This document shows, one piece after another, positions 34 to 16,263 of a stretch of DNA of 64,000 nucleotides. The notes below the pieces were generated by a model that had not been told where the DNA came from, searched no databases, and saw nothing but the letters and a program-made list of their open reading frames with translations. The DNA is from a bacterium. Lineage in GTDB: Bacteria; Pseudomonadota; Alphaproteobacteria; Acetobacterales; Acetobacteraceae. The stretch covers positions 1-64,000 of the forward strand of contig JAMFRO010000069.1 in assembly GCA_026224825.1 (NCBI GenBank), given 5' to 3'. The first letter of the stretch is position 1; every line of letters starts with the position of its first letter. A program made the position numbers and the translations under genes.

Positions 34-129
34 ATGGAATTTTTGAGGAACCTCTCGCAACGACCTCCGGTGCCCGCAGTGGCGGCCGGAGTTTGCTCGC
101 GACCTCAAAATGCGCACAAGAAAGGCTAG
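34..129 (+). CDS. Putative proline-rich leader peptide of an attenuator
   Basis: A 31-codon reading frame runs from ATG at 34 to TAG at 127-129. It contains Pro codons CCT-CCG-GTG-CCC at 64-75, giving RPPVP. These codons lie on the 5' arm of a hairpin upstream of an intrinsic terminator and a prolyl-tRNA-synthetase-like gene, the arrangement expected when ribosome stalling at uncharged tRNA-Pro controls transcription. The ribosome binding site is weak (only purines near 26-31), and the promoter must lie near or beyond the left edge. Translation is inferred; the frame and codons are seen directly. A fortuitous ORF cannot be excluded. Confidence 0.5.
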   Translation: MEFLRNLSQRPPVPAVAAGVCSRPQNAHKKG

Positions 130-190
130 TCGCCTGCGCCTTGCGTGAGACTGAACGATCCGGACGCCCCCTGTGGGCGTTTTTTATTTT
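61..190 (+). promoter_or_regulatory. Transcription attenuator of the ProRS-like gene
   Basis: Three mutually exclusive pairings can be drawn. Hairpin 1:2 is CTCCGG (65-70) with CCGGAG (86-91). Antiterminator 2:3 is GGCGGCCGG (81-89) with CCGGACGCC (160-168), 8 of 9 pairs. Terminator 3:4 is ACGCCC (164-169) with GGGCGT (175-180), then a T run. Leader Pro codons occupy segment 1. Stalling there would free segment 2 to pair with 3 and prevent termination. This is the logic of amino-acid attenuators such as those of his, leu and pheS. The pairings are visible; the function is inferred. Confidence 0.6.
164..190 (+). terminator. Intrinsic terminator of the attenuator
   Basis: ACGCCC and GGGCGT form a 6-bp G+C-rich stem around a CCTGT loop, followed by six T, an A and four T. 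It lies 40 nt before the start codon of the ProRS-like gene and after the leader ORF, so it can only act as a regulatory terminator for the downstream gene. Confidence 0.75.
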
Positions 191-230
191 CAGGCCAATT
201 TTTTCGCTGAATTTAAATCCGGAGCACATC

Positions 231-4220: not shown

Positions 4221-5105
4221 CTATCTCAATCGCAAATCCCACAACACATCAAGTACGTGCTGCGTGGAACGCTCGACATACCCCGCACGATGTGCAATGC
4301 CGAGCCGGCGCCACAACGCAGGGCGCAGAGGACGCATGACGACGCGCACGTCGGGCAATGGGGTAGTAGCCTCATGGGGCAACAGCGCTGCGCCGTAACC
4401 CGCTGCGACCAGACTCTTGATTGCGTCGTTGTAGTTAAGCTGAATGCGCGGCGCAGGATGGTGACCGGCGCTCGCGAACCACTCGGCACTCAGCCGCGAG
4501 AGACGCGTGGTGCTGTCATTGAGAATGAGCGGCTGAGCGGCAAGCCATTCAGGCGTGACGCGAGCCGGACAGCGCCAATGCGCCGGCATGAACGCCATGA
4601 CAGGGTCGCGGCGCCAAGGCTTTATCACGAGTCCAGCCATCGGGGGCTGAGGCAGTGCGACCAGTCCAACATCCAGTGTTCCTCCCGCCAATCGGGTTAG
4701 CGTTTCATGCGAAGTGAGGACTGCGACCTGAATGTCGATAGCGGGATGGTCCTGCCGCAGCACATCCAGGGCTTGCGGCAACAGATGCGCGATCGCGCCA
4801 GTCGACGCACCGAGTCGCACGCGTCCGGCGAGCCCCTGCACCTGACGTTGAACATCGTCCAATGCCTGCTCCGTATCGGCGAGCAGTCGACGCGCGCGCT
4901 CTACCAGCACCTCGCCGATCGCCGACGGCCTTATGTTTCCGCGCTTGCGTGACAGGAGCGGCGCCCCAATGCGGTCTTCGAGCTCCGCGATGTGCAGGCT
5001 GACTGTCGGCGGTGCCAGGTGCAACGCGCGCGCCGCATCGGCAAATGAGCCGCGGTCGGCAATCGCAACCAGGGTGCGCAAACGGTCCAGACTGATCTCT
5101 CGCAT
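4221..5105 (-). CDS. LysR-family transcriptional regulator
   Basis: 294 aa. The N-terminal winged HTH (residues 1-60) contains RTLVAIADRGSFADAARALH, and a periplasmic-binding-like effector domain follows. The gene is divergent from a type-2 argC with a 127-bp gap that holds a perfect palindrome 13 nt from this start codon, so autorepression and control of argC are both plausible. The effector is unknown; an arginine-pathway intermediate is a guess from context only. A weak AGGA precedes the start. Confidence 0.9.
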   Translation of the reverse strand: MREISLDRLRTLVAIADRGSFADAARALHLAPPTVSLHIAELEDRIGAPLLSRKRGNIRPSAIGEVLVERARRLLADTEQALDDVQRQVQGLAGRVRLGASTGAIAHLLPQALDVLRQDHPAIDIQVAVLTSHETLTRLAGGTLDVGLVALPQPPMAGLVIKPWRRDPVMAFMPAHWRCPARVTPEWLAAQPLILNDSTTRLSRLSAEWFASAGHHPAPRIQLNYNDAIKSLVAAGYGAALLPHEATTPLPDVRVVMRPLRPALWRRLGIAHRAGYVERSTQHVLDVLWDLRLR

Positions 5106-5117
5106 AGCGGCGTCCTG

Positions 5118-5134
5118 ATTCAGAAAATCTGAAT
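5118..5134. promoter_or_regulatory. Palindromic operator between lysR and argC
   Basis: ATTCAGA-AAA-TCTGAAT is a perfect 7-bp inverted repeat with a 3-bp centre and fits the T-N11-A pattern of LysR-type sites. It lies immediately upstream of the regulator and about 100 bp before argC. Confidence 0.5.
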
Positions 5135-5232
5135 GTGTACGTTATGAAATTCAACTTTTGCTATTGTAGCGGTGCGTAGAAAATGATGGCTCGCTCTACT
5201 TGTTACGGCCCAGCCACCGGAGTATTTCACGC

Positions 5233-6162
5233 ATGAGCTCTCCCCTTGTTTTCATCGACGGCGACCAAGGCACTACCGGGTTGCAAATTCACGAACGGCT
5301 GCGCGACCGGACCGACCTGAGACTCTTTACGCTTCCCGCCGCGGAGCGCAAGGATCCTCGGCGCCGCGCCGAGGCCATCAATGCCTGCGACATTGCCATT
5401 CTTTGCCTGCCCGACGACGCCGCGCGCAAGGCAGTAGACGCCATCGTCAATCCCGCCGTCAAAGTAGTCGACGCAAGTTCCGCCCACCGCACGCACCCGG
5501 ACTGGACATACGGCTTTCCAGAAATGACTCCGGGACAGCCGGAGCGGATCGCGAGCGCACGTCGGGTCACCAATCCCGGTTGCTATCCGACCGGTGCAAT
5601 AGGTCTGCTGCGCCCCCTGGTGCAAGCCGGGCTCATACCCAGCAGTTATCCGGTCAGCATTCATGCGGTGTCCGGCTACTCGGGACGCGGGCGCGCCGGC
5701 GTGGAAGAACATGAGGGGCCGGGCGCCGTCAAAGCGCCCTCCTACCTGGTGTATGGTCTGGAACTCGCGCACAAGCACACCCCGGAGATCCAGCGACACG
5801 CGGAGCTCACGCAGCGTCCCTTCTTCGTCCCTGCGTATGGTGCGTTTCGCCAGGGCATCGTGCTGACGGTGCCCCTGGAGCTGCGGCTGCTGGCGCCCGG
5901 CGTGGACGGCGCCGCGTTACACGCATGCCTCGCGCGCCACTATGACGGCATGGCGCACGTGCGCGTCTCGCCGCTGGAGGAATCGCGCACCTTAAAGCAC
6001 CTCGATCCGCAAGTGCTGAACGGTACGAACGACATGAACTTGAGTGTATTTCCCAACCTGGAACACGGACACGTGCTGCTATCCGCCGTTTTCGATAATC
6101 TCGGCAAAGGGGCATCCGGTGCTGCGGTTCAGAACCTGAACCTGATGCTCAAACATCGATAG
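5233..6162 (+). CDS. argC: N-acetyl-gamma-glutamyl-phosphate reductase, type 2
   Basis: 309-aa NADPH-dependent reductase of arginine biosynthesis (N-acetylglutamyl phosphate to the semialdehyde). It has the short type-2 form: [15 protein letters not shown] at the N terminus, catalytic Cys in [13 protein letters not shown] (about residue 117) and [10 protein letters not shown] (about 152). Start 5233 has GGAG upstream; an earlier in-frame codon at 5200 lacks one. It is not in an arg operon but faces a LysR regulator, so it may be a second copy under special control. The family call is firm; the physiological role is inferred. Confidence 0.92.
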
Positions 6163-6197
6163 AAGCTTGTGGATATCGGCTGCTGACCCAACGTCTC

Positions 6198-6974
6198 TCA
6201 GACGCTGGACAGCTTCGGACGGCCGAGTTTTACCATTTGCCGGAACATGAAGTGCGGTGCAACGCGGCTGGCGATTTTCAATATATTGCTCACGCCTGGG
6301 CGAATTTCGAGTTTTCCCGCTTCGATACCTGCAATGGCACGCTTCGCGAGCACGCTCACATTCATGCCTTTTTCGCCTTTCATCTCCTCGGCAAACTCGC
6401 CCCGAAATAGCGGTGTTTCGGTGCCCGGAGGCGCCAATTCGACTACGGACACGCAGGTGTCGGCCAGCTGCGCCCTCAGGCACTGCGTGTAGGCATGAAG
6501 CGCGGCTTTTGACGCGCTGTATATCGGAGCCGCAGGAAAAGGAATAAACGCCAAACCTGATGACACGTTCACAATCAGGCTGTCGTTCTGCCTCAACAGC
6601 AGAGGCAGAAAAGCCTGAGTCATCCACATGGGTCCCTTCAGATTTCCGTCGACTTCAGCGGTCAGGTCGCTCAACTGACGCTGGTGCCCCAGTTTGATAT
6701 TGCGCATCGTTCCCGCGTTGTTCATCAGTGTGTTGAACGCTGGAAACCGGCCAGACACGGTTTTGTACAACGACTCGATACTCGTCGGATCGCTAACGTC
6801 ACTTTGAAAAGCATGGAGTCCCGGCACGGCTCGCCGTGCGACCTCCAGCCTGTCGAGATCCCGTCCGGTGACTATCACCGTATTACCGCGAGCAATCAAC
6901 TGCGTTGCCAACTCCAGACCAATCCCGCTGGTCCCTCCCGTAATCAATATGGTTCTTCCGGTCATCTTCATCAT
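6198..6974 (-). CDS. Short-chain dehydrogenase (DltE-like)
   Basis: About 258 aa. NAD(P)-binding TGGTSGIGLELA near residues 12-23, MNNAGTMRN near residue 86, and YSASKAALHAYTQ catalytic Tyr-Lys near residue 157. This resembles the DltE/YdfG-like SDR subgroup often annotated as an oxidoreductase of unknown substrate. GAGGGTGAG directly precedes ATGATG at 6974/6971. It is divergent from an HxlR regulator 100 bp away, a common pairing in which HxlR represses the SDR. It converges with argC. Confidence 0.88.
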   Translation of the reverse strand: MMKMTGRTILITGGTSGIGLELATQLIARGNTVIVTGRDLDRLEVARRAVPGLHAFQSDVSDPTSIESLYKTVSGRFPAFNTLMNNAGTMRNIKLGHQRQLSDLTAEVDGNLKGPMWMTQAFLPLLLRQNDSLIVNVSSGLAFIPFPAAPIYSASKAALHAYTQCLRAQLADTCVSVVELAPPGTETPLFRGEFAEEMKGEKGMNVSVLAKRAIAGIEAGKLEIRPGVSNILKIASRVAPHFMFRQMVKLGRPKLSSV

Positions 6975-7077
6975 CTCACCCTCTGTTTTGTTAGCACGAA
7001 CGTAGTTTGACCGGCATACTCTCCAAAGGGAAGAAGGCACCTGAAGGTTCTATACGCACCAAAAGGAGAGCGTGAAA

Positions 7078-7509
7078 ATGAAGCGAGTCCCAGATTTCAC
7101 CAAGGAACAGATCGCCGCCGCGCAGTACTACGCGAGCCTGACACCGCCGATCGATCTTGATCCTCGAATTGCTTCGTTAGTCACAGATCTCATCGGCCGC
7201 GTTGCAGACAAATGGACGATGTTGATTCTCGACGTACTTGCGGAGAAGTCACCGCTGCGGTTCAGCCGGCTTGCCGAACTGGTTGAGGGAATCAGTCAGA
7301 AAATGCTCACCCAGACCTTGCGCGCGATGGAGCGCGATGGTCTGGTGACACGCACGGTGTATCCGGTCGTCCCGCCGAAGGTCGAATACAAACTCACGGA
7401 CCTCGGGATCACCTTGGGCGCTGCGTTCTGTGGAGTCTGGGTCTGGGCGGCCAACAATCTGGATGCAGTAGAGAAGGCACGTGGAGATTTTGACCAACGC
7501 CCCGCGTGA
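7078..7509 (+). CDS. HxlR-family transcriptional regulator
   Basis: 143-aa winged-helix regulator with the HxlR signature: IGRVADKWTMLILDVL near residue 40, then FSRLAELVEGISQKMLTQTL and the wing RDGLVTRTVYPVVPPKVEY. The ATG at 7078 lies 9 nt after AGGAG; a GTG at 7072 is too close to that site. HxlR proteins sense reactive electrophiles or redox state and usually repress an adjacent oxidoreductase, here the divergent SDR. No Cys lies near the N terminus; the only Cys is near residue 120. Confidence 0.9.
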   Translation: MKRVPDFTKEQIAAAQYYASLTPPIDLDPRIASLVTDLIGRVADKWTMLILDVLAEKSPLRFSRLAELVEGISQKMLTQTLRAMERDGLVTRTVYPVVPPKVEYKLTDLGITLGAAFCGVWVWAANNLDAVEKARGDFDQRPA

Positions 7510-8034
7510 TAGCAGCGATTCGCCACACGGCTCACCTTGCTGCGGACTTTCGCGCATTCAGCGTGAGAGGTCCAATGGGTCGAGCGCTCAAATCCAGCTG
7601 ATCGTTTAGTCTGCTATCGAGCAAAGGCATGTCATGGCAATTTTGTATTGCCATTAATTTGACTCGCTATTTAATCAGTTGAAAAAAGGCATTCCATAGA
7701 CTAGAGTGATCGGTAACTTCTATCTGCACATATCTCGAATTTCTATCGCTCTGCGCTTACCTCGACACGCAAGGTTTACCCCGTTGCGCTGCACATGAAT
7801 CGAGCCGTTCCGACGTTGATATCGGTGTTGATGTATACGTCCCCTAATGCTTAGGATTGCTTTGCGTGGTCGCACGGTAGTGCATGTCGCGACGCTCCTG
7901 TCCATAATTCTCATGGATTCCGAAATAGCACTGCATTCCTAGTATCGGCTGCGTTTTTGTGAAAATGCATTCGGCGCGCTCACGGCCAGGCGGCCGATCG
8001 CGATCCAGGTTACGGCTCAGGGAAGGGGTTTATC
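7510..8034. other. Intergenic region without a gene
   Basis: No supported gene. The region is A+T-rich from 7600 to 7720 and holds a perfect palindrome (7634-7654) and a TTGACT that could be a -35 element at 7659-7664. The 64-codon minus-strand frame at 7720-7914 has no recognisable protein character. Promoter signals for the HAF-repeat gene probably lie here. Confidence 0.6.
7634..7654. promoter_or_regulatory. Perfect 8-bp-arm palindrome, operator candidate
   Basis: ATGGCAAT-TTTGT-ATTGCCAT is a perfect inverted repeat followed by TTGACT 5 nt later. Position and symmetry suggest a repressor site over a promoter about 380 bp before the HAF-repeat gene. No T run follows, so it is not a typical terminator. 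Confidence 0.4.
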
Positions 8035-9072
8035 ATGCGATCCGCATTCAAGGTAGTTAGCAGTGTGAACTATGTTCGCCGCGCCCTGATTGTTTTCACC
8101 ACCGTGCTCGCGGTCGCCCCATTCCAGCTTGCCTCAGCGCAAAGTCTCGTCATCAGGGATCTCGGCGCGCTCCCCGGTAGCTTTAACTCCAGCAGCGCTC
8201 TCGGGATCAACGAGCGCGCCCAGGTGGTCGGCTACTCGATCACCGCGAGCGGGAGCACGCATGCCTGCCTGTTTGAAAAAGGGGTGGTGACCGACCTGGG
8301 CACGTTCCCCGGTGGCAGCATCAGCACGGCTACCGCGATCAACAATCGTGGCCAGGTGGTCGGTTCCTCGAGCACCGCACGCGGGAACGACCACGCCTTT
8401 CTGTTTGAACACGGCGCGATGACCGACCTGGGTACGCTCCCTGGTAGCGACTTCAGCTCAGCTGCCGCGATCAACGAGCGGGGCCAGGTCGTCGGCTCCG
8501 CGTCCAACCTACGCGGATATGTGCACGCTGCCCTGTTTGAAAACGGCGTGGTGACCGACCTGGGCACACTCCCCGGGGGCACGGATAGCGGAGCTTTAGG
8601 GATCAACAATCGCGGCCAGGTGGTCGGCTATTCTTCCATCGCAGGCGGGTTTGCACACGCCTTTCTGTATGAACACGGCGTGATGACGGACCTGGGCACA
8701 CTCCAGGGTAGCGGCCTCAGCCACGCTCAGGGGATCAACGATCGCGGCCAGGTGATCGGCATATCGTCTACCGCAAGCGGGGACGTGCACGGCTTTCTGT
8801 ATGAACACGGGGTGATGACTGACCTGGGCACGCTCCCCGGTCGCAGCGACAGTAACGCTTTTGGGATCAACAATCGCGGCCAGGTGGTCGGCGAGTCGGA
8901 TACCGGAACCAGTCCGTACTTGCCGAACGCCTTCCTGTTTGAACATGGGGTAATGACCGACCTGGGCACGCTCCCCGGCGACAACTTCAGCGAAGCTGTC
9001 GGAATCAACGAGAGCGGCCAGATCGCGGGTAACTCCACGTTGCACGCTATCCTTTGGACACGAGAAAAATGA
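8035..9072 (+). CDS. HAF-repeat exported protein
   Basis: 345 aa. An N-terminal hydrophobic segment (about residues 16-36, ending LASAQS) is a likely signal peptide. The rest is seven imperfect repeats of about 43-45 aa built on xTDLGTLPGG, then GINNRGQVVG, then HAFLxEHG. This is the HAF-repeat family of extracellular proteins, predicted beta-propeller-like, of unknown function. The repeats are near-identical also at DNA level (GACCTGGGCACGCTCCCCGG recurs), so copy number may vary by recombination. No SD is obvious; GGAAGGGG lies at about -14. A complex hairpin follows at 9384. Confidence 0.85.
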   Translation: MRSAFKVVSSVNYVRRALIVFTTVLAVAPFQLASAQSLVIRDLGALPGSFNSSSALGINERAQVVGYSITASGSTHACLFEKGVVTDLGTFPGGSISTATAINNRGQVVGSSSTARGNDHAFLFEHGAMTDLGTLPGSDFSSAAAINERGQVVGSASNLRGYVHAALFENGVVTDLGTLPGGTDSGALGINNRGQVVGYSSIAGGFAHAFLYEHGVMTDLGTLQGSGLSHAQGINDRGQVIGISSTASGDVHGFLYEHGVMTDLGTLPGRSDSNAFGINNRGQVVGESDTGTSPYLPNAFLFEHGVMTDLGTLPGDNFSEAVGINESGQIAGNSTLHAILWTREK

Positions 9073-9546
9073 TTGATGATCTCCAAGTCGCAGGTTCAAA
9101 TGCGCGCGCGTGCCCGCCGAACTTGTTGACTGAAATTGCCGCGACCGTATTACCAAAGAGATTCGTCGCAGTCCTTCCCATATCTAAAAATATATCTATA
9201 CCTGCGATGATCGCGGTGGCCTAAACTGGCAGGCCGGTCACTGCCAGTACACTGGCCAATGCCACAATTTTTCCCTTCAATCTCTGAATCGCGTCGCCAG
9301 TCGCTGTTATTCGGTCATCCCAAGGGCATGCAACCAGTCGGTGTACCACAAGCCTCTTCCAGAAAGAGGCCACGGAAAAAGCAAAAGACCGCTATCCGTA
9401 AGGACAGCGGTCTTTCTTAGGACAGCAGGTGAATGACCGAGCTTAAACTGCTCACGCCCCCGTCGTCATTTGCGCGCCCATGACGCAGCTTGAAACGCTT
9501 AGTCATCTTACGCTTATTTGCGCCTGGTCACCAACCTCAACTACTA
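9073..9546. terminator. Gene-free gap with two hairpins, one probably a bidirectional terminator
   Basis: ACTGGCAG (9225-9232) pairs perfectly with CTGCCAGT (9241-9248). AAAGACCGCT (9384-9393) pairs perfectly with AGCGGTCTTT (9406-9415); on the plus strand it ends in CTTTCTT and on the minus strand in CTTTTGCTTTTT. It lies between convergent genes (HAF protein and small secreted protein), as expected for a shared terminator. No coding signal otherwise. Confidence 0.65.
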
Positions 9547-9837
9547 CTATTGGCCAGCCGGCGACACTGTGCTCGGGGTCGCCAGCGTGTTGTGACTACC
9601 GGGAGCATTGATGAGGGACGTCGAGCTATTGTTCATGCTATTCGGCAGGCTCGAATTCGCCGACCCGGAGCCCATGCCGCTATCCGAGTTAGTCACACCA
9701 GAAGTGCCGTAGCCGCTAGTTGCAGCGGCCGGCGAAACAGTGCTCGGGGTCGCCAGCGTGTTGTTCTGTGCATAAGCGCCGGCCGACAGCGTGAGTGCGG
9801 CGACGGCCGCGATTAATGCGCGGGTTGTCTTGTTCAT
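9547..9837 (-). CDS. Small secreted protein with duplicated NTLATPSTVSPA motif
   Basis: 96 aa. The start at 9837 is fixed by AAGGAGG at good spacing. The signal peptide is MNKTTRALIAAVAALTLSAG-AYAQ with a likely cut after AYA. The mature region is Ser/Asn/Gly/Thr-rich, Cys-free and low in charge, and begins and ends with NTLATPSTVSPA. The duplicated 36-bp DNA blocks (9558-9593 and 9729-9764) differ at only two or so bases. No known domain; probably a short disordered periplasmic or extracellular peptide. Confidence 0.75.
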   Translation of the reverse strand: MNKTTRALIAAVAALTLSAGAYAQNNTLATPSTVSPAAATSGYGTSGVTNSDSGMGSGSANSSLPNSMNNSSTSLINAPGSHNTLATPSTVSPAGQ

Positions 9838-10176
9838 GACTCGTCCCTCCTTGATTGGACTGGAATGTCGACGCAAACGATCCATTCGTATTTTCCACGG
9901 CGGTCGTTGTACGCTTGTCTCGTGGCGATCAAACAAACTCGCGCGACCCTCGCAGTGGCATAAGCGACGCACACCACAGATCACCGCTCAGGGCTGGCAC
10001 GAGACACGTTTCATTCCTGGCAAGAATCTACGCCTGCGAAAGGCCTAGACCCTCAGTGTAGGTAGTTGGTCGCTGATAATTAAGCGCGTTGTCCGCAAGG
10101 GTGAATTTCGATTTCCGGAATTACCCCTAATGGGTTCGGGTCCCCATACCCGCAAACCTTCCGCATATGTTGGTGC
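9838..10176. other. Intergenic region upstream of the small secreted protein
   Basis: About 340 bp between the chemoreceptor stop and the small secreted protein. No convincing reading frame on either strand; it must hold the promoter of the small gene. I see no strong palindrome in it. Confidence 0.5.
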
Positions 10177-11736
10177 TTACGTCTGCGGCACAAGCCGGAA
10201 CGAGGAGACGGCGCTTTCCAGCTGACGCGCCTGCGCCTCGAGCGAGCCCGCCGCTGCAGCGGCCTGTTCGACGAGCGCTGCGTTCTGTTGCGTCACCTGC
10301 TCCATCTGTGCGACTGCCTGGCCGATCTGCACGATACCGGTTGCCTGTTCGCCCGACTCCGCCGAAATCTCCTGCACGATTCCCGCAACGCGCCGCACCG
10401 CCACGACGGTTTCATCGATCGCGGCACCTGCCTGCGCCACCTGCGCGTTCCCAGACTGCACCCTTGTCAGCGAGTCGTTGATCAGCGTCCTGATTTCCCG
10501 TGCAGCGCCCGCGCTGCGCTGCGCCAGCGTGCGCACCTCGCCCGCAACCACGGCGAAACCCCTTCCCTGTTCGCCTGCCCGGGCCGCTTCCACCGCCGCG
10601 TTCAACGCGAGGATGTTGGTCTGGAACGCGATGCCGTCGATGGTGCCAATGATGTCGGCCATACGTGTCGCGCTTTGGTTGATATCGTTCATCGTCGACA
10701 CCACGCTACGCACTACTTCGCCACTACGGGTCGCCAGTTGCGCGGCATCGTCGGCGAGCGAGCTCGCCGCGCGCGCATTCTCCGCGTTGTTGGTCACGGT
10801 GGAGGTCAGTTCCTTCATGCTCGCGGCCGTCTCTTCGAGTGCCGCCGACTGCTGCTCGGTACGCGAGGACAGATCCAGATTCCCCGCGGCAATCTCCTGC
10901 GCGCCGACGTTCACCGAATCGGAGCTGGTCAGCACCTGCCGCACGGTGCGCGTCAGCCCTTCCTTCATCCGCGCGATCGCGACCAGCAGGCGCCCCACTT
11001 CGTTGCTGCCCGTCGCAGCGATCGATATTGTCAGGTCGCCGTCGGCGACCTTGTCGAGCAGGCTGACCGCTTCGGTCAGCGGCCTGACAACCAGCGCCCG
11101 CAGCGCGAAATGCACTGCGATGATGAGAGCCAATGCAACCAGCACGCCGAACACGACGAGTCTGACGATCAATTGATAGCGGGCGTCGCCGAGATCCGTC
11201 TCCGCCTGCGCGAGCTCATTCGCCTGCTTCTGAAACTTCTCCACCGCCACCGAGTAAGCCGTGCCCGTCGCCGTGATGTCTTTCGTGTTGATCGCCGCGT
11301 ACTTGCCGGGATCGTTCGCGCGTAACGCTTCGAGCGCGCGCTGTACCGCATCGGTGTGATCCCGCGCCAGTTGCACGATGCTTTGCCGGAGCGCGTCGTC
11401 CTGACCTTCGAAGCCCGGCGCGTCGGCGAATGCCTGTAGCTGCGCCATCGACTTGTTGATGCTGGTCTGCGCGGAGCCAATCGCGCTCGTGTTCGGAGTG
11501 GCGCCCGCCACTTCGCGCGCCGAGCTGTAAGCGCGGACCAGCGCGCTGCGCGCGCGTGTCATGTCCTTGTAGGCGTCGTTGAGCAGAATGCAGCGCGCCG
11601 AGATCGTGTGGACGCGATCGGTCGAACGGTTCGCCGCGCGCAGCGAGGCAACGCCCGCCATCCCGCCAGCGACGATCATCACGCCGAAAATCGCAAGGAT
11701 GACGAGCAACCCCGTGCGTATGCTGACGTTTTTCAT
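10177..11736 (-). CDS. Methyl-accepting chemotaxis protein (Tar type)
   Basis: 519-aa transmembrane chemoreceptor. TM1 is at about residues 8-30, followed by a four-helix-bundle periplasmic domain (about 31-185, DRVHTISARCILLNDAYKDM), TM2 (about 188-212), HAMP, and a cytoplasmic signalling tip with IDGIAFQTNILALNAAVEAA. The C terminus ends FRLVPQT, without a CheR-binding pentapeptide. Start at 11736 (MKNVSIRTG) gives a proper signal anchor; an upstream frame extension does not. It is third on the minus strand after a sugar-acid-type transporter and a lactonase, suggesting taxis toward the transported compound; the ligand is inferred from context only. Confidence 0.93.
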   Translation of the reverse strand: MKNVSIRTGLLVILAIFGVMIVAGGMAGVASLRAANRSTDRVHTISARCILLNDAYKDMTRARSALVRAYSSAREVAGATPNTSAIGSAQTSINKSMAQLQAFADAPGFEGQDDALRQSIVQLARDHTDAVQRALEALRANDPGKYAAINTKDITATGTAYSVAVEKFQKQANELAQAETDLGDARYQLIVRLVVFGVLVALALIIAVHFALRALVVRPLTEAVSLLDKVADGDLTISIAATGSNEVGRLLVAIARMKEGLTRTVRQVLTSSDSVNVGAQEIAAGNLDLSSRTEQQSAALEETAASMKELTSTVTNNAENARAASSLADDAAQLATRSGEVVRSVVSTMNDINQSATRMADIIGTIDGIAFQTNILALNAAVEAARAGEQGRGFAVVAGEVRTLAQRSAGAAREIRTLINDSLTRVQSGNAQVAQAGAAIDETVVAVRRVAGIVQEISAESGEQATGIVQIGQAVAQMEQVTQQNAALVEQAAAAAGSLEAQARQLESAVSSFRLVPQT

Positions 11737-11793
11737 GTTGTGATCCCCTGGGACGAGCGGCGCGATGCTGCCGCCCGCCACCGCAATACCGGT

Positions 11794-12873
11794 TTAATTG
11801 ACGTCGACGATCTCGACCCAAGACGGGTTCTTGCCGACAAGGTACGAGCCCTGCAGCTTGAGCGCCCCCGTGTCCGGATCGATGCGATGCACGCTCACCG
11901 CATTCGACAACTGTCCGGCGGACAGCAGATACCGTCCCGACGAATCGATCGCGAATGCACGTGGCTGCGTTTCGGTCGAATACTGACCGATCGTTGTCAG
12001 ATTGCCATCCTGCCCGTCGATCCGGTACGCGATCACCGTGCTCGAGGTGCGCTCCGAGGCGTAGAGATAGCGGCCATCGGGCGTGGTGTGAACGTCTGCC
12101 GCCCACGGTGTGCCGGTAAAACCAGCGGGAACCGCAGAGACAACCTGGCGAATCGCGAGCGTGCCACGGTCGGGATCGAAGGCCGCGCGTTCGAGCTTGC
12201 CGTCGAGCTCGTCGACGATATAGACGACGCGGCCGTTCGGCGCGAACGTGAAATGCCGTGGGCCGGCCTGATTGGCGAAATTCAGCGTGGGTGGATCATT
12301 CGGCGTGATCGCGCCGGTCGTCGCATCGAAGCGGAGCTGCATGACGATGTCGCCGCCGAGATTGGTCGCGAAGAGCCAGCGGTTCGACGGATCGGTCTTG
12401 ATGGCATGCGCCTTCGGCTTCGTGGGGATCACAATATTGGCGGGCGCCACGACGCCGTCGTCGCCAATCCGGCTCTCGCTGATCAGATTGCCGCCATAGG
12501 ACGCGGCAAACAGGAAGCGTCCGGTCTTGTCGGTCGACAGATTGGCCATGCTCTCCGGCAACGGCGAGGTTGCGACCGGCGTCAGCATGCCGTCACCCGC
12601 GCCGATGCGAAAGCTCGCGACCGAATATGGCTTTGAGCGCAGTGCCGCGAACAGATAGCGGCGATCCGGGCTCACTGTGAGCGGCATCACCATGCCCGAC
12701 ACCGGCACGTCCTGAATCGACGACAGCTTGCCGGTCTCTTCATTCAGGCGCATTACCGAGATCGTTCTGCTGTCAGCGTTCGACACGTAGACGACGGTTG
12801 TCGCATTGGCCGCCCCGGACAACGCACCCAGGGTTGCCGCAGCCGCGGCCGTCCACTTCATCATTGCATGCAC
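11794..12873 (-). CDS. Exported lactonase-family beta-propeller protein
   Basis: About 359 aa. The N-terminal signal peptide MKWTAAAAATLGALSGAANA is followed by seven propeller-type segments (YVSNADSRTISVMRLNEETG, then repeats with DPSNRWLFATNLGG and TPDGRYLYASERTS). This is the 6-phosphogluconolactonase/YbhE-type propeller family. Export means it would act on sugar lactones in the periplasm rather than on cytosolic 6-phosphogluconolactone. GTG at 12873 has GGAG 8 nt upstream; ATG at 12864 or 12861 is possible. It sits between the MFS transporter and the chemoreceptor. Confidence 0.85.
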   Translation of the reverse strand: MHAMMKWTAAAAATLGALSGAANATTVVYVSNADSRTISVMRLNEETGKLSSIQDVPVSGMVMPLTVSPDRRYLFAALRSKPYSVASFRIGAGDGMLTPVATSPLPESMANLSTDKTGRFLFAASYGGNLISESRIGDDGVVAPANIVIPTKPKAHAIKTDPSNRWLFATNLGGDIVMQLRFDATTGAITPNDPPTLNFANQAGPRHFTFAPNGRVVYIVDELDGKLERAAFDPDRGTLAIRQVVSAVPAGFTGTPWAADVHTTPDGRYLYASERTSSTVIAYRIDGQDGNLTTIGQYSTETQPRAFAIDSSGRYLLSAGQLSNAVSVHRIDPDTGALKLQGSYLVGKNPSWVEIVDVN

Positions 12874-13049
12874 CAAAGAATCTCCATTCCTTTTGGCGCA
12901 AGGGACGTGGCCTTGGCCGCTGATTGATTTGTTCACTGCCGGCCACCCGACTAGAAAGGGCCGGCAGACATTGGCAATTACGGCAAGCGGCCAAACAACT
13001 TTAATTAGGGGTAGGGATTGTCTGACATCGATTCAGCATGCGAGAGGTT

Positions 13050-14387
13050 TCACGAACGCAGTTCGATGCGCTTGAGATCCGGCACGATGACGAGATAGCA
13101 GAACACAGTGAGCAGTGCGTTGGCGCCAACGAACACGAGCGCGCCGTTGAAGGAGCCTGTCGCCCCGAGCACATAGCCGATGACGATGGGCGTGACGATG
13201 CCGGCGGTATTGCCGAACAGATTGAAGAGTGCGCCGGACAGGCCGACCGCCTCGGGCGGCGCCGTATCGGCGATGACGGCCCAGCCTAGCGCGCCGAGGC
13301 CCTTACCGAAGAACGCAAGCGCCATCAGGCTGACGACAAGCCAGTTCGCGTTGACGTAGTTGCAACCGACCATCACCACCGACAGCAGCATCCCTCCCAC
13401 GATCGGTACCTTACGCGCAACGGTCAGCGAATGGCCGCGCCGGACCATACCGTCCGACAGCACGCCGCCGAGCATGCCACCCGCGAAGCCGCAGATCGCC
13501 GGCACCGATGCGGCGAAACCCGCCTGCAGGATCGTCATGCCACGCGCCTGCACGAGGTAGAGCGGAAACCACGTCAGGAAAAAGTAGGTCAGCACGTTGA
13601 TGCAGTACTGGCCGAGATACACGCCGAGCAGCATCCGGTTAGACAGCAACTGGCGTATCGTCGCGAAGCTCGAGGCCGCCCCGCCCATGCCGGCTGGCTG
13701 CGTTTTGCCGCGCGCCTGAATCGTGCCGCCACCCTGTTCGATGTAGTCGAGTTCGGCACGGTTGACGCGGGGATGCTCGGACGGACTGCGCATCAGCTTG
13801 AGCCACAGCAGCACCAGCACAAAGCCCGCGACGCCCATCGCGAGGTAGACGTGGCGCCAGCCGAACGCATGGGTGAGCCACGCCATCAACGGTGTGAAGA
13901 CGGCGGCCGCGCAGTATTGCGCCGCATTGAAGAATGCAGATGCGGTTCCGCGTTCCGCCGTTGGGAACCAGCTTGCGACGATCTTGCCGTTGGCAGGAAA
14001 GGCGGGGGCTTCGGCGATACCCATCGCGAAGCGCAGCGCGAACAGCGTGGCAATGGCCGCGCCGCCCGCCACGATGCCGACACTGCCTTGCAGCAGCGTG
14101 AACAGCGACCAGAAGAAAATGCTGGCGGCATAGACGCGACGTGCACCGAAGCGATCGAGCAGCCAGCCGCTCGGCAACTGCGCCAGCACATAGGCCCAGC
14201 TGAATGAAGAGAAGATGTAGCCCATCTGCACCGCATCGATGCCGAACTCCTGGCGCATCGCTGTGCCGGTAACCGACAGCGTTGCGCGGTCCGCGTAATT
14301 GAACGTCGTGATGATGAAGATCATCAGCAGGATGCCGTAGCGGACGTTCGTGCGTTGAGCGACGCTCACGGCGCGGCTGATTTCCAT
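13050..14387 (-). CDS. MFS transporter, sugar-acid (GudP/ACS) type
   Basis: 445 aa with twelve predicted membrane helices. The signature TTFNYADRATLSVTG near TM1 and the motif DRFGARR between TM2 and TM3 match the anion:cation symporter branch that carries glucarate, galactarate or galactonate. Start 14387 is preceded by GGAGACACG. The promoter region 14388-14522 holds an inverted-repeat cluster resembling GntR sites. With the exported lactonase and the chemoreceptor downstream it forms a plausible uptake and sensing module for aldonic or aldaric acids or their lactones; the exact substrate is not shown. Confidence 0.9.
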   Translation of the reverse strand: MEISRAVSVAQRTNVRYGILLMIFIITTFNYADRATLSVTGTAMRQEFGIDAVQMGYIFSSFSWAYVLAQLPSGWLLDRFGARRVYAASIFFWSLFTLLQGSVGIVAGGAAIATLFALRFAMGIAEAPAFPANGKIVASWFPTAERGTASAFFNAAQYCAAAVFTPLMAWLTHAFGWRHVYLAMGVAGFVLVLLWLKLMRSPSEHPRVNRAELDYIEQGGGTIQARGKTQPAGMGGAASSFATIRQLLSNRMLLGVYLGQYCINVLTYFFLTWFPLYLVQARGMTILQAGFAASVPAICGFAGGMLGGVLSDGMVRRGHSLTVARKVPIVGGMLLSVVMVGCNYVNANWLVVSLMALAFFGKGLGALGWAVIADTAPPEAVGLSGALFNLFGNTAGIVTPIVIGYVLGATGSFNGALVFVGANALLTVFCYLVIVPDLKRIELRS

Positions 14388-14472
14388 CGTGTCTCCAGAA
14401 GCCTGCGAAGGCAGCAGGCGTGATGCATGGCGTAGCGCGGAGATGTTCGAGAAAATCTCTTGGCCACTTGTT

Positions 14473-14522
14473 AGACAAATATAACCATCAAACAATGTTG
14501 TCTGTCAACATTGGATTTGTCT
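14473..14522. promoter_or_regulatory. GntR-like operator cluster before the MFS gene
   Basis: CAATGTTG-TCTGT-CAACATTG (14493-14513) is a perfect 8-bp-arm palindrome containing TTGTCTGTCAA, close to the GntR/FadR-class consensus. It is flanked by AGACAAAT (14473-14480) and ATTTGTCT (14515-14522), themselves an inverted repeat. Three TTGTCT half-sites thus lie within 50 bp, about 85-135 bp before the transporter start. No GntR gene lies in the window. Confidence 0.55.
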
Positions 14523-14713
14523 GCCACGCGGCTGAACCGGTTTTTGTCGACTTCGTAAGACATCGATAAGGAGACCCCTTCGCGTGATGGAATCACACCA
14601 TCGGTCGGCCGCCCTGCTTGGGACAACGAAGGATCGAGCAGGCGCTGTACTTCCCCGATTGCCTCGGCCGGATCGGGGACACGACCCATGACAAAAAGAT
14701 TCGTGGTCAGAGG

Positions 14714-15070
14714 CTATCGAGCTACGTTCAGGTAACGGTTGACCTCGGACAGGAACGCAGACCGATAAGATTCTGGTACGGTGCGGTCGTCCCAGTGCGA
14801 CAGCGAAGCTTCAATCCTGTCGCGGAACGACGCGACAATGTCAGCGCGCAGTCCGTACGGCAAGTGTGTCAGTACCGAAACCAGCAGTTCGCCAACGATC
14901 GCAAGACGCGCGCCGTGCTCCACCACACTAAGACCGTTCATCTTCGACAGGGCCACGAGCGAATCAAGAAATAACTGGCTGCTGACCTGCTCATCTTCGG
15001 CGTTCCGGACTGGCGACGGTTCCGTCAGCGAAACCGCTTGGGCACGAGCACCTGCATCGTTGCTAAACAT
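14714..15070 (-). CDS. Small hypothetical protein
   Basis: 118 aa, probably cytosolic, largely helical (SQLFLDSLVALSKMNGLSVV, then ADIVASFRDRIEASLSHWDD). No family recognised. The start at 15070 has AGGA 8 nt upstream; an ATG at 15088 is the alternative. Good SD and amino-acid balance favour a real gene, but it sits next to decayed chemoreceptor DNA. It lies upstream of the MFS gene on the same strand, separated by more than 300 bp including the operator cluster. Confidence 0.5.
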   Translation of the reverse strand: MFSNDAGARAQAVSLTEPSPVRNAEDEQVSSQLFLDSLVALSKMNGLSVVEHGARLAIVGELLVSVLTHLPYGLRADIVASFRDRIEASLSHWDDRTVPESYRSAFLSEVNRYLNVAR

Positions 15071-15284
15071 TTTGAAAATCCTGGCCAAGAGCCATTAAGT
15101 GATCGGAAATTTTGCCAGTTGGAGGCCGCCGTATCGGCAGCGCTACTGGCGGGTTTGGGGGCGATGCGGGTCGGGGCAACGTTCAGCTTCGGAGACTGCG
15201 CACGACGCGCCGCTGGAGTACCGGTGCTGGCAGCGCTGGCCTCGCTCGCAGAATCGCGATGCTTGCCACAGATGGCTCCATATC

Positions 15285-15485
15285 GGCGAGCGTGAACACT
15301 GAAACGGCTTTCTGGAGATGCGTGGCCTGTTCTTCAAGTGACTGCGCTGCGGCGGCCGCCTCTTCGACCAGCGCGGCTCGCGACATCATTGAGCATGATG
15401 AGATTACGCATCGTGGAGCGAACATCCCGTACGTTGTCCTGCGCCAAGGAAATCAGAAGAGACATTCTGGGAACATCACGGCCCA
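15285..15485 (-). pseudogene. Chemoreceptor remnant with its centre deleted
   Basis: Reading on the minus strand, 15485-15372 encodes LAQDNVRDVRSTMRNLIMLN, typical of a receptor N-terminal ligand-binding helix. The next bases, 15383-15290, in another frame encode AALVEEAAAAAQSLEEQATH and then LQKAVSVFTL, the extreme C terminus of a chemoreceptor. The several hundred residues normally between them are missing and the frame is shifted at the join. This is a clear internal-deletion pseudogene. Confidence 0.75.
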
Positions 15486-15598
15486 GCGACTTCCGAAACG
15501 GATGACTATTTAACCTTACCAATTGAAATATAAGGAGTCGGTCCGCGCTGGAAGTGACGTAAGGTAATCCTTCCGCTAACTGAGACGGAGCACATCCG

Positions 15599-16263
15599 AT
15601 GACAACAACTGCAATTCCCATCGATCCGATCAACGGCATTCTTGAAGCGTTCAAAACGCATAGCGTCGTGGCACTCTGCGACGGCGGCCACGGCTGCGAA
15701 CAAGCCTATGCATTAAGAGTCGCGCTGATCCGGGACCCGCGGACATTATCCAACGTGAAGTGCTAGCCAGGCAGCGCCGCGCTTTGGTCGTCTATGGCGA
15801 TATGCACTTTTTGCGTAAGAGCCCCTACTGGCAAATGAAAGACCACGATGAAGCAGAGCGGCGATTCAGCGCGCCGGCGGATTCCATCGTTTCGTTGCTG
15901 GAAGGTCAGGGTGTCAAAGTCTATTCAGTCTGGTCCACGGTGCTTATCGATCTGGCAGCTTTATATCCCGACGTCACTTCCTGGAAGGTTCCAGGTCTCG
16001 TGCCTATTCATGACACTCCACTTGGGGGAATGAGCTTTCGATCATATTATCCGCACGCCATGATAAGGATGCGTGACGGCGTCGGAGAAGAAATTTCTGT
16101 TGATCCGATCCGCTCTCCTGTCATGCAGGAGCAGTTCGACGCCATTCTTTACTATGGGCGACCATCGGAGTTGACCTGGAGTCAAGTCTCTCCCGCGTTA
16201 GCCTCCGATCCAGAGTACGTCAAGATGCGGTCGAACAGAATCGCATGGGTGGGGCTATCTTAA
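15599..16263 (+). pseudogene. Internally deleted and frameshifted conserved gene
   Basis: ATG at 15599 opens a frame with FKTHSVVALCDGGHGCEQAY that ends at TAG 15764-15766 after 55 codons. From about 15738 another frame continues ADIIQREVLARQRRALVVYG and DMHFLRKS to a stop at 16263. The two halves look like the start and end of one soluble protein of a family I know only as hypothetical (an HSVVALxxGxHG start and a VxYGDMH segment, metal-binding-like). The middle is missing. The C-terminal 167 codons alone could be mistaken for a gene. Confidence 0.7.

Follow-up and report, generated by a model that had tools for sequence, protein, structure and literature searches.

A conserved leader with the anatomy of a ribosome-mediated transcription attenuator, in which proline codons lie on the first arm, precedes a second, divergent prolyl-tRNA synthetase gene (here referred to as ProRS2) at the start of the analysed DNA (64,000 nucleotides, hereafter the window). 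The anatomy itself is confirmed to be present and conserved, the switching between its structures is predicted by modelling, and we infer that the leader is translated and that proline is its signal, as well as the enzyme activity and purpose of ProRS2. With a probability of roughly 0.68, the arrangement represents attenuation of an auxiliary ProRS that is sensitive to tRNA charging. According to this mechanism, a ribosome that finishes the leader would let segment 1 of the RNA fold on segment 2, so that segment 3 would be free to form a terminator with segment 4 and transcription would end upstream of ProRS2. If charged proline tRNA runs short, e.g., at low proline or upon inhibition of the housekeeping ProRS, the ribosome would wait with Pro11 or Pro12 in its A site and cover segment 1, and segment 2 would then capture segment 3 in a long antiterminator, allowing transcription of ProRS2. 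Its product, an auxiliary prolyl-tRNA synthetase without editing domain, would restore charging. The enzyme encoded downstream corresponds to the amino acid of the leader codons, as is usual for attenuation.

The leader ORF and its proline codons

The leader ORF, MEFLRNLSQRPPVPAVAAGVCSRPQNAHKKG, was read from the sequence at positions 34 to 129 of the + strand and comprises 31 codons, from ATG to TAG. In an alignment of ten sequences (the window and nine relatives, among them Paraburkholderia sp. BL9I2N2 (G061) and its congener G128), the leader start of one, G062, is truncated by the contig end; the nine complete leaders all have 31 codons plus a stop, with no indel inside the ORF and with indels downstream of it. 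The proposed stall codons are CGA-CCT-CCG-GTG-CCC (61 to 75, + strand), encoding Arg10-Pro11-Pro12-Val13-Pro14; direct reading of the window gives CCT at 64-66, CCG at 67-69, GTG at 70-72, and CCC at 73-75. Arg10 (CGA), Pro12 (CCG), and Pro14 (CCC) are identical at the codon level in all ten leaders, and Pro11 is encoded by CCT in eight and by CCA in two (G062 and G257), a synonymous change that retains proline and costs one pair of hairpin 1:2. All three prolines are invariant. For the CGA codon of Arg10 (61-63), found in 10/10 leaders, slow decoding and pairing are both conceivable roles. The majority core of the peptide is QRPPxPAxAAGVCS; G257 has H in place of Q, G062 and G257 both have R in place of C, and G171 differs at two positions. 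In simulations of random 31-codon ORFs, three proline codons within four consecutive ones occurred in 0.9-1.5% of cases, assuming a proline frequency of 5-6%. Because the conserved proline codons overlap segment 1, codon and pairing constraints are confounded and invariance cannot separate them.

The same attenuator may instead respond to a stall caused by nascent Arg-Pro-Pro and the status of EF-P, or by another nascent-peptide arrest, rather than to tRNA charging. Arg10-Pro11-Pro12 is invariant in all ten leaders, always with CGA, as are A15, A18, G19, and S22, and RPPP acts as a strong pauser in an E. coli hisL reporter (PMC8129111, in the text available). As the leader contains Arg-Pro-Pro, such a pause may sharpen or even replace the charging signal. 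However, the conserved neighbouring residues overlap segment 1, segment 2, or the antiterminator extension, so RNA pairing may account for them, and a ProRS gene downstream suits a charging signal; a purely peptide-driven stall is thus considered improbable.

The coding signature of the leader is weak. Its pN/pS is 0.78 in frame versus 0.73 in frame +1, and over codons 10-31 it is not below that of column shuffles (790 of 2000 equally low); codons 10-22, with a value of 0.39, are the sole part that appears constrained. The codon-position and pN/pS tests have too little power to prove coding. At the leader start, no Shine-Dalgarno sequence above background was detected in any of seven leaders (-3.0 to +0.4 kcal/mol for duplexes with the anti-Shine-Dalgarno), in a weak test in which random 17-mers had a mean of -3.0 and a best tenth of -6.6, and in which the gene's own site, at -5.8, is likewise unexceptional. 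That site is GGAG at 221 to 224 (+ strand), with -5.8 kcal/mol in the window and -5.8 or -6.2 kcal/mol across the leaders tested. The absent leader Shine-Dalgarno is the chief gap in the attenuator anatomy; translation can, however, initiate without one. Since the window starts at base 1 of its contig, the sequence upstream of the leader is unreadable, and promoter evidence comes solely from the relatives: a candidate promoter, TTG[CT][AG][AG], a spacer of 16-17 bases, and CA[AG][AG]GT, lies 78-114 bases upstream of the leader ATG in 8/8 relatives with enough sequence, its pattern having been composed from those same sequences.

Alternative RNA structures and ribosome position

Four segments on the + strand, delimited by pair counts, give either hairpin 1:2 plus terminator 3:4, or the antiterminator 2:3. 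Segment 1 (64 to 77), the protector arm, pairs through 65-70 (CTCCGG) with 86-91 (CCGGAG), 6/6 in the window, and through 72-74 with 81-83. Segment 2 (81 to 91) pairs alternatively with segment 3 (160 to 169): 81-89, GGCGGCCGG, is complementary to 160-168, CCGGACGCC, at 8/9 positions, with a G85-A164 mismatch. An extension of this pairing (94 to 157), derived from the RNAalifold consensus fold and pair counts, consists of 94-100/152-157, 104-107/146-149, and an inner hairpin, 112-116/135-139. The predicted intrinsic terminator (164 to 185), identified by terminator scan and alignment, combines 164-169 (ACGCCC) with segment 4, 175-180 (GGGCGT), and has six T at 180-185. The coordinates in the original prediction, i.e., those of the 65-70/86-91, 81-89/160-168 (8/9), and 164-169/175-180 pairings, all proved accurate, and its CCT-CCG-GTG-CCC codons and T run were likewise confirmed.

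RNAalifold also nested a 1:4 pairing outside the extended 2:3 structure, and in the window 71-77 of segment 1 pairs with 173-179, overlapping segment 4, in this position of the consensus fold. This pairing could be a lock on the readthrough RNA or a by-product of the four-segment design. Two further pairings were observed near the gene start. A small hairpin, TTCAG/CTGAA, lies at 189-211 between terminator and Shine-Dalgarno, its stem kept and its loop shorter in G062 and G257. In addition, CTCCGG of segment 1 (65-70) can pair with CCGGAG (219-224) over the gene's Shine-Dalgarno, with a weaker match in G062 and G257, and to judge from the sequence this would allow translational control as well.

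Among the ten sequences, the terminator stem has zero mispaired cells and the six T are present in 10/10; two sequences carry an alignment gap here and fold the same stem with a 4-base loop. The combination of 1:2 and 3:4 is paired in 93.7% of 158 cells (5/500 shuffles as high; slid versions 32-53%), and the antiterminator in 94.5% of 238 cells (87/500 shuffles as high; slid versions 27-41%), percentages that are favoured in that both structures were derived from the very sequences counted. Two antiterminator pairs changed on both sides, with a covariation score matched by 74/500 shuffles, and neither two-sided changes nor covariation were found in 1:2 or 3:4 across the ten sequences. Hairpin 1:2 is imperfect, as alignment-column pair 33:57 is broken in 2/10 and 37:53 in 5/10 without compensation. 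In the window and in G128, three base pairs of the 94-100 part of the extension are lost as well. Covariation thus appears to give little independent support for the structures, the main evidence being invariance.

These comparisons bear on the original description of a textbook attenuator with all elements present. The ribosome-stalling anatomy, in which arm 1 carries proline codons, recurs in nine relatives, and both the proline codons and the alternative stems were present in the orthologous leaders, so that nothing spoke against the prediction there. The pairings, the terminator, and the proline codons stand, whereas "textbook" overstates a leader without Shine-Dalgarno in seven of seven cases, with a 1:2 hairpin broken in some relatives, and with weak covariation, two-sided changes being limited to two pairs of the antiterminator. 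The window by itself is unremarkable: its overall folding energy did not discriminate (200-nt fold, z = -0.51, 59/200 shuffles as stable), positions 1-1500 contain two terminator-like sites versus a shuffled mean of 1.7, and scans for consensus promoters and terminators were equally uninformative. It is conservation in the ten aligned sequences, i.e., of ORF length, proline codons, pairings, and terminator, that places the leader above chance.

The effect of ribosome position was modelled by masking the ribosome footprint at each codon and folding the RNA (partition function) up to just before segment 4, either with 12 bases of upstream flank for seven leaders (scan A) or with no flank and three footprints for nine leaders (scan B). 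G062, which has an intact gene and shares its segment 1 with G257, was outside the scans. With codon 11 or 12 in the A site, antitermination is predicted throughout, the probability of pairing 2:3 being 0.64-0.99 in 9/9 leaders in scan B and 0.62-0.99 in scan A. It is predicted to fall to 0.02 or less at codon 15 (scan A) and, once the ribosome has reached codon 18 or 20, to 0.00 in 9/9 leaders (scan B). With the ribosome at the stop codon, scan B gave 0.00-0.04 in six of nine leaders (the window, G181, G061, G133, G227, and G267), 0.00-0.36 in G128, and 0.97-0.99 in G257 and G171, which would still antiterminate; scan A gave 0.00 in 5/7, 0.67 in G128, and 0.99 in G257. The ribosome-free RNA had values of 0.00-0.05 in five of nine leaders, 0.36-0.37 in G267 and G128, and 0.97-0.98 in G171 and G257. 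In the two leaders that fail at the stop codon, G257 and G171, the gene behind is frameshifted and absent, respectively, which fits decay of the switch, a coincidence noticed post hoc.

Several features of the model qualify this picture. Pro14 lies at the edge of the permissive region (0.48-0.98 with a short footprint; 0.00-0.12 with a long one, except 0.98 in G257). Earlier stalls, at codons 5-10, are mostly predicted to antiterminate too in most leaders, so position by itself does not single out proline. When the upstream part was dinucleotide-shuffled 100 times per leader, the contrast between stall and stop was matched by none of the shuffles for G061 and G227, one for G133, four for G181, 12 for the window, 42 for G128, and 85 for G257; thus, at most 4/100 were as good in four of seven leaders. 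Pairing 81-84/165-168 overlaps the terminator arm, yet in full-length equilibrium folds including segment 4 the terminator is often favoured and forms in many stalled cases. The mechanism would therefore need kinetic folding, in which the antiterminator, formed first, must persist.

Alternatively, the terminator may act constitutively or answer to a protein or a ligand, with no part for translation of the leader ORF. The missing Shine-Dalgarno, the weak coding signature, and the ordinary folding energy of the window all favour this reading. It leaves unexplained, however, an ORF of exactly 31 codons that is free of indels in the nine complete leaders despite indels further on, and the placement of the proline codons inside the region whose stall is predicted to give antitermination; moreover, the window had 0 Rfam matches at gathering scores, i.e., no T-box or other known riboswitch that could supply ligand control. 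We regard a leader without a role for translation as unlikely.

The ProRS2 gene, its distribution and its losses

The gene behind the leader (231 to 1379, + strand) encodes 382 amino acids. The original prediction called it ProRS-like, and it is a true ProRS paralog: it contains both the class II core and an anticodon domain (Pfam tRNA-synt_2b and HGTP_anticodon) and scores 349.8 bits against TIGR00409, above the cut-off of 306.7; the stricter NF006625 was not reached (365.1 versus 558). Aligned to solved ProRS chains, ProRS2 has no counterpart of residues 231-412 of 8w8j, which, lying between motifs 2 and 3, we take to be the INS editing domain; ProRS enzymes without INS exist. In the same alignment, YRDE, GVGISR, and GATCEE presumably represent motif 2, motif 3, and the T-x-E loop. 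A structure prediction from three sequences was uninformative (mean pLDDT 39.8). Compared with the housekeeping enzymes of G062 and G061, ProRS2 is 42-43% identical over residues 7-219 and 33-36% over 218-366. All seven ProRS2 rows form one group in the tree, on a branch of 3.42 changes per column with 100/100 support; ProRS2 is thus no recent duplicate of the host's own gene. Placement of the group is unsure, as the long ProRS2 branch may be falsely attracted, three long end branches were flagged, and start codons were chosen by script.

This divergence raises the idea that ProRS2 resembles ProRSx and, under leader control, charges an odd tRNA for deliberate mistranslation. Besides the long branch, the differing anticodon-domain motifs (GKKLAD and ACRQR in ProRS2 versus GVKFAD and GIPHR) are in line with it. 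ProRSx is, however, reported to be co-encoded with tRNA-ProX (PMC11415595, in the part available), and no such tRNA was seen in G061: this one genome has 68 tRNA-model hits, including three proline tRNAs with anticodons CGG, GGG, and TGG, and, sorted by anticodon with ARAGORN over 66 stretches covering the hits, no A34 tRNA except Arg-ACG. Nor was a tRNA gene found in the window and the nine loci scanned. On the evidence of this genome and these ten sequences, a role in mistranslation is very unlikely.

At a threshold of E <= 1e-70, the gene is present in 4 of 144 genomes of the genus of G061 and in 3 of 65 of the genus of G062; a sample of 398 genomes from the family added none, its three occurrences being among those seven. 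Among genome contigs, the protein has two close matches, in Paraburkholderia sp. BL9I2N2 (86%) and Burkholderia multivorans WS-FJ9 (79%), and the best segments of other relatives among the best 80 of 287 reach 33-47%. Viral contigs contained no relative of the protein, relatives in phage and plasmid records were all below 60% identity, and at the DNA level four plasmid records matched 11-14% of the query with 67-69% identity.

The leader was found in the window and in all seven gene-bearing genomes. Two further genomes hold the leader and have lost ProRS2 wholly or mostly: in G171, the ORFs that come after leader and terminator are unrelated, and in G267 only the gene end remains (read by eye). 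At these two loci, L149 (4340-4491, - strand; G171) and L154 (5202-5353, + strand; G267), leader and terminator are intact. Together with G257, in which the gene is frameshifted, three losses were counted. A covariance model built from eight leaders gave five strong hits in the 144 genomes (E 1.3e-39 or better), four in the 65, and four in the 398 (all repeats), solely beside a ProRS2 gene or where the gene has been lost. Eight weak matches in the 144 genomes (19.8-23.3 bits) were taken as chance; at E 0.1, 11 of the 144 genomes had a match.

According to the ORF lists, the flanking ORFs occur in at least four settings, namely, those of the window and G128; of G061, G181, and G133; of G227; and of G257. 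Leader and gene are thus a constant unit amid differing flanks. A fortuitous combination of an upstream gene's terminator and a chance ORF, for which it could be said that terminator-like sites in positions 1-1500 are no commoner than in shuffles, is hardly credible given that leader, terminator, and gene stay together in these differing surroundings and that ORF and proline codons are conserved.

The window is the start of a contig of 69,045 bases (C5) in assembly G000. Its positions 5000-16000 match G128 at 94% over 2.7 kb, and match three congeners of G000 in short stretches only (at most 109 bits). The tree places the ProRS encoded on C47, another contig of this assembly, with a congener of G000. 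Since C5 is Paraburkholderia-like and the ProRS of C47 goes with the congener, C5 is, on sequence grounds, probably a stray contig of Paraburkholderia-like DNA.

Relation to known systems and biological meaning

The auxiliary tryptophanyl-tRNA synthetase TrpRS1 of Streptomyces coelicolor was reportedly found by Vecchione and Sello in 2010 to be under ribosome-mediated attenuation. Like ProRS2, it is encoded by a spare synthetase gene with ribosome-mediated transcriptional attenuation, and unlike ProRS2 it concerns tryptophan and Actinobacteria. We know of no inhibitor of ProRS2. For TrpRS1, resistance to indolmycin is described in the accessible part of PMC9437257. Paralogous hisS genes of bacilli are likewise preceded by leader peptides with codons for the synthetase's own amino acid; according to the text available, these involve histidine and Firmicutes and are a prediction in that paper (PMC2965389). 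Classical attenuators precede trpS and leuS in Streptomyces and pheST in gamma-proteobacteria, again for other amino acids (PMC1262725, as far as available). Proline codons in leaders also have a precedent: those of mgtP and of the mgtA leader ORF in Salmonella respond to conditions under which the level of charged proline tRNA is predicted to drop, whereas the targets there are the mgtCBR operon and mgtA (Mg2+ transporters), and mgtP has a Shine-Dalgarno-like site (PMC3641672, in the portion consulted). ProRSx, too, is a divergent bacterial-type ProRS copy beside a housekeeping one (PMC11415595, same part), but it is known from Streptomyces (PMC9437257, same part) and its partner tRNA was not found in G061.

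No report of a proline leader before a ProRS gene was found in the text available from the literature searched, outside which most subscription journals lie. The novelty originally suggested thus holds for the combination of proline leader and ProRS, as far as these sources go, and not for its components, since leader attenuators of other synthetases and proline leaders have already been published.

A more specific role is conceivable, in which the proline-stalling attenuator induces the divergent, editing-less ProRS as a bypass of ProRS inhibitors from soil or plants, i.e., as a resistance switch. The patchy presence of the gene and its three independent-looking losses are compatible with an accessory defence gene, and we put this role forward tentatively. 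In the same partly available literature, most subscription journals again lying outside it, no natural resistance switch for proline or ProRS was found.

If charging-sensitive attenuation of ProRS2 is true, ProRS, with proline as its amino acid, would join the synthetase genes governed by leader peptides, here in beta-proteobacteria. It would also suggest that some agent in the environment blocks ProRS or drains the pool of charged proline tRNA. The leader may also serve as a natural system for telling Arg-Pro-Pro pausing from codon-specific starvation. For some Paraburkholderia and Burkholderia, the conserved set of leader, terminator, and extra ProRS resembles a switch by which a spare enzyme may be called upon.
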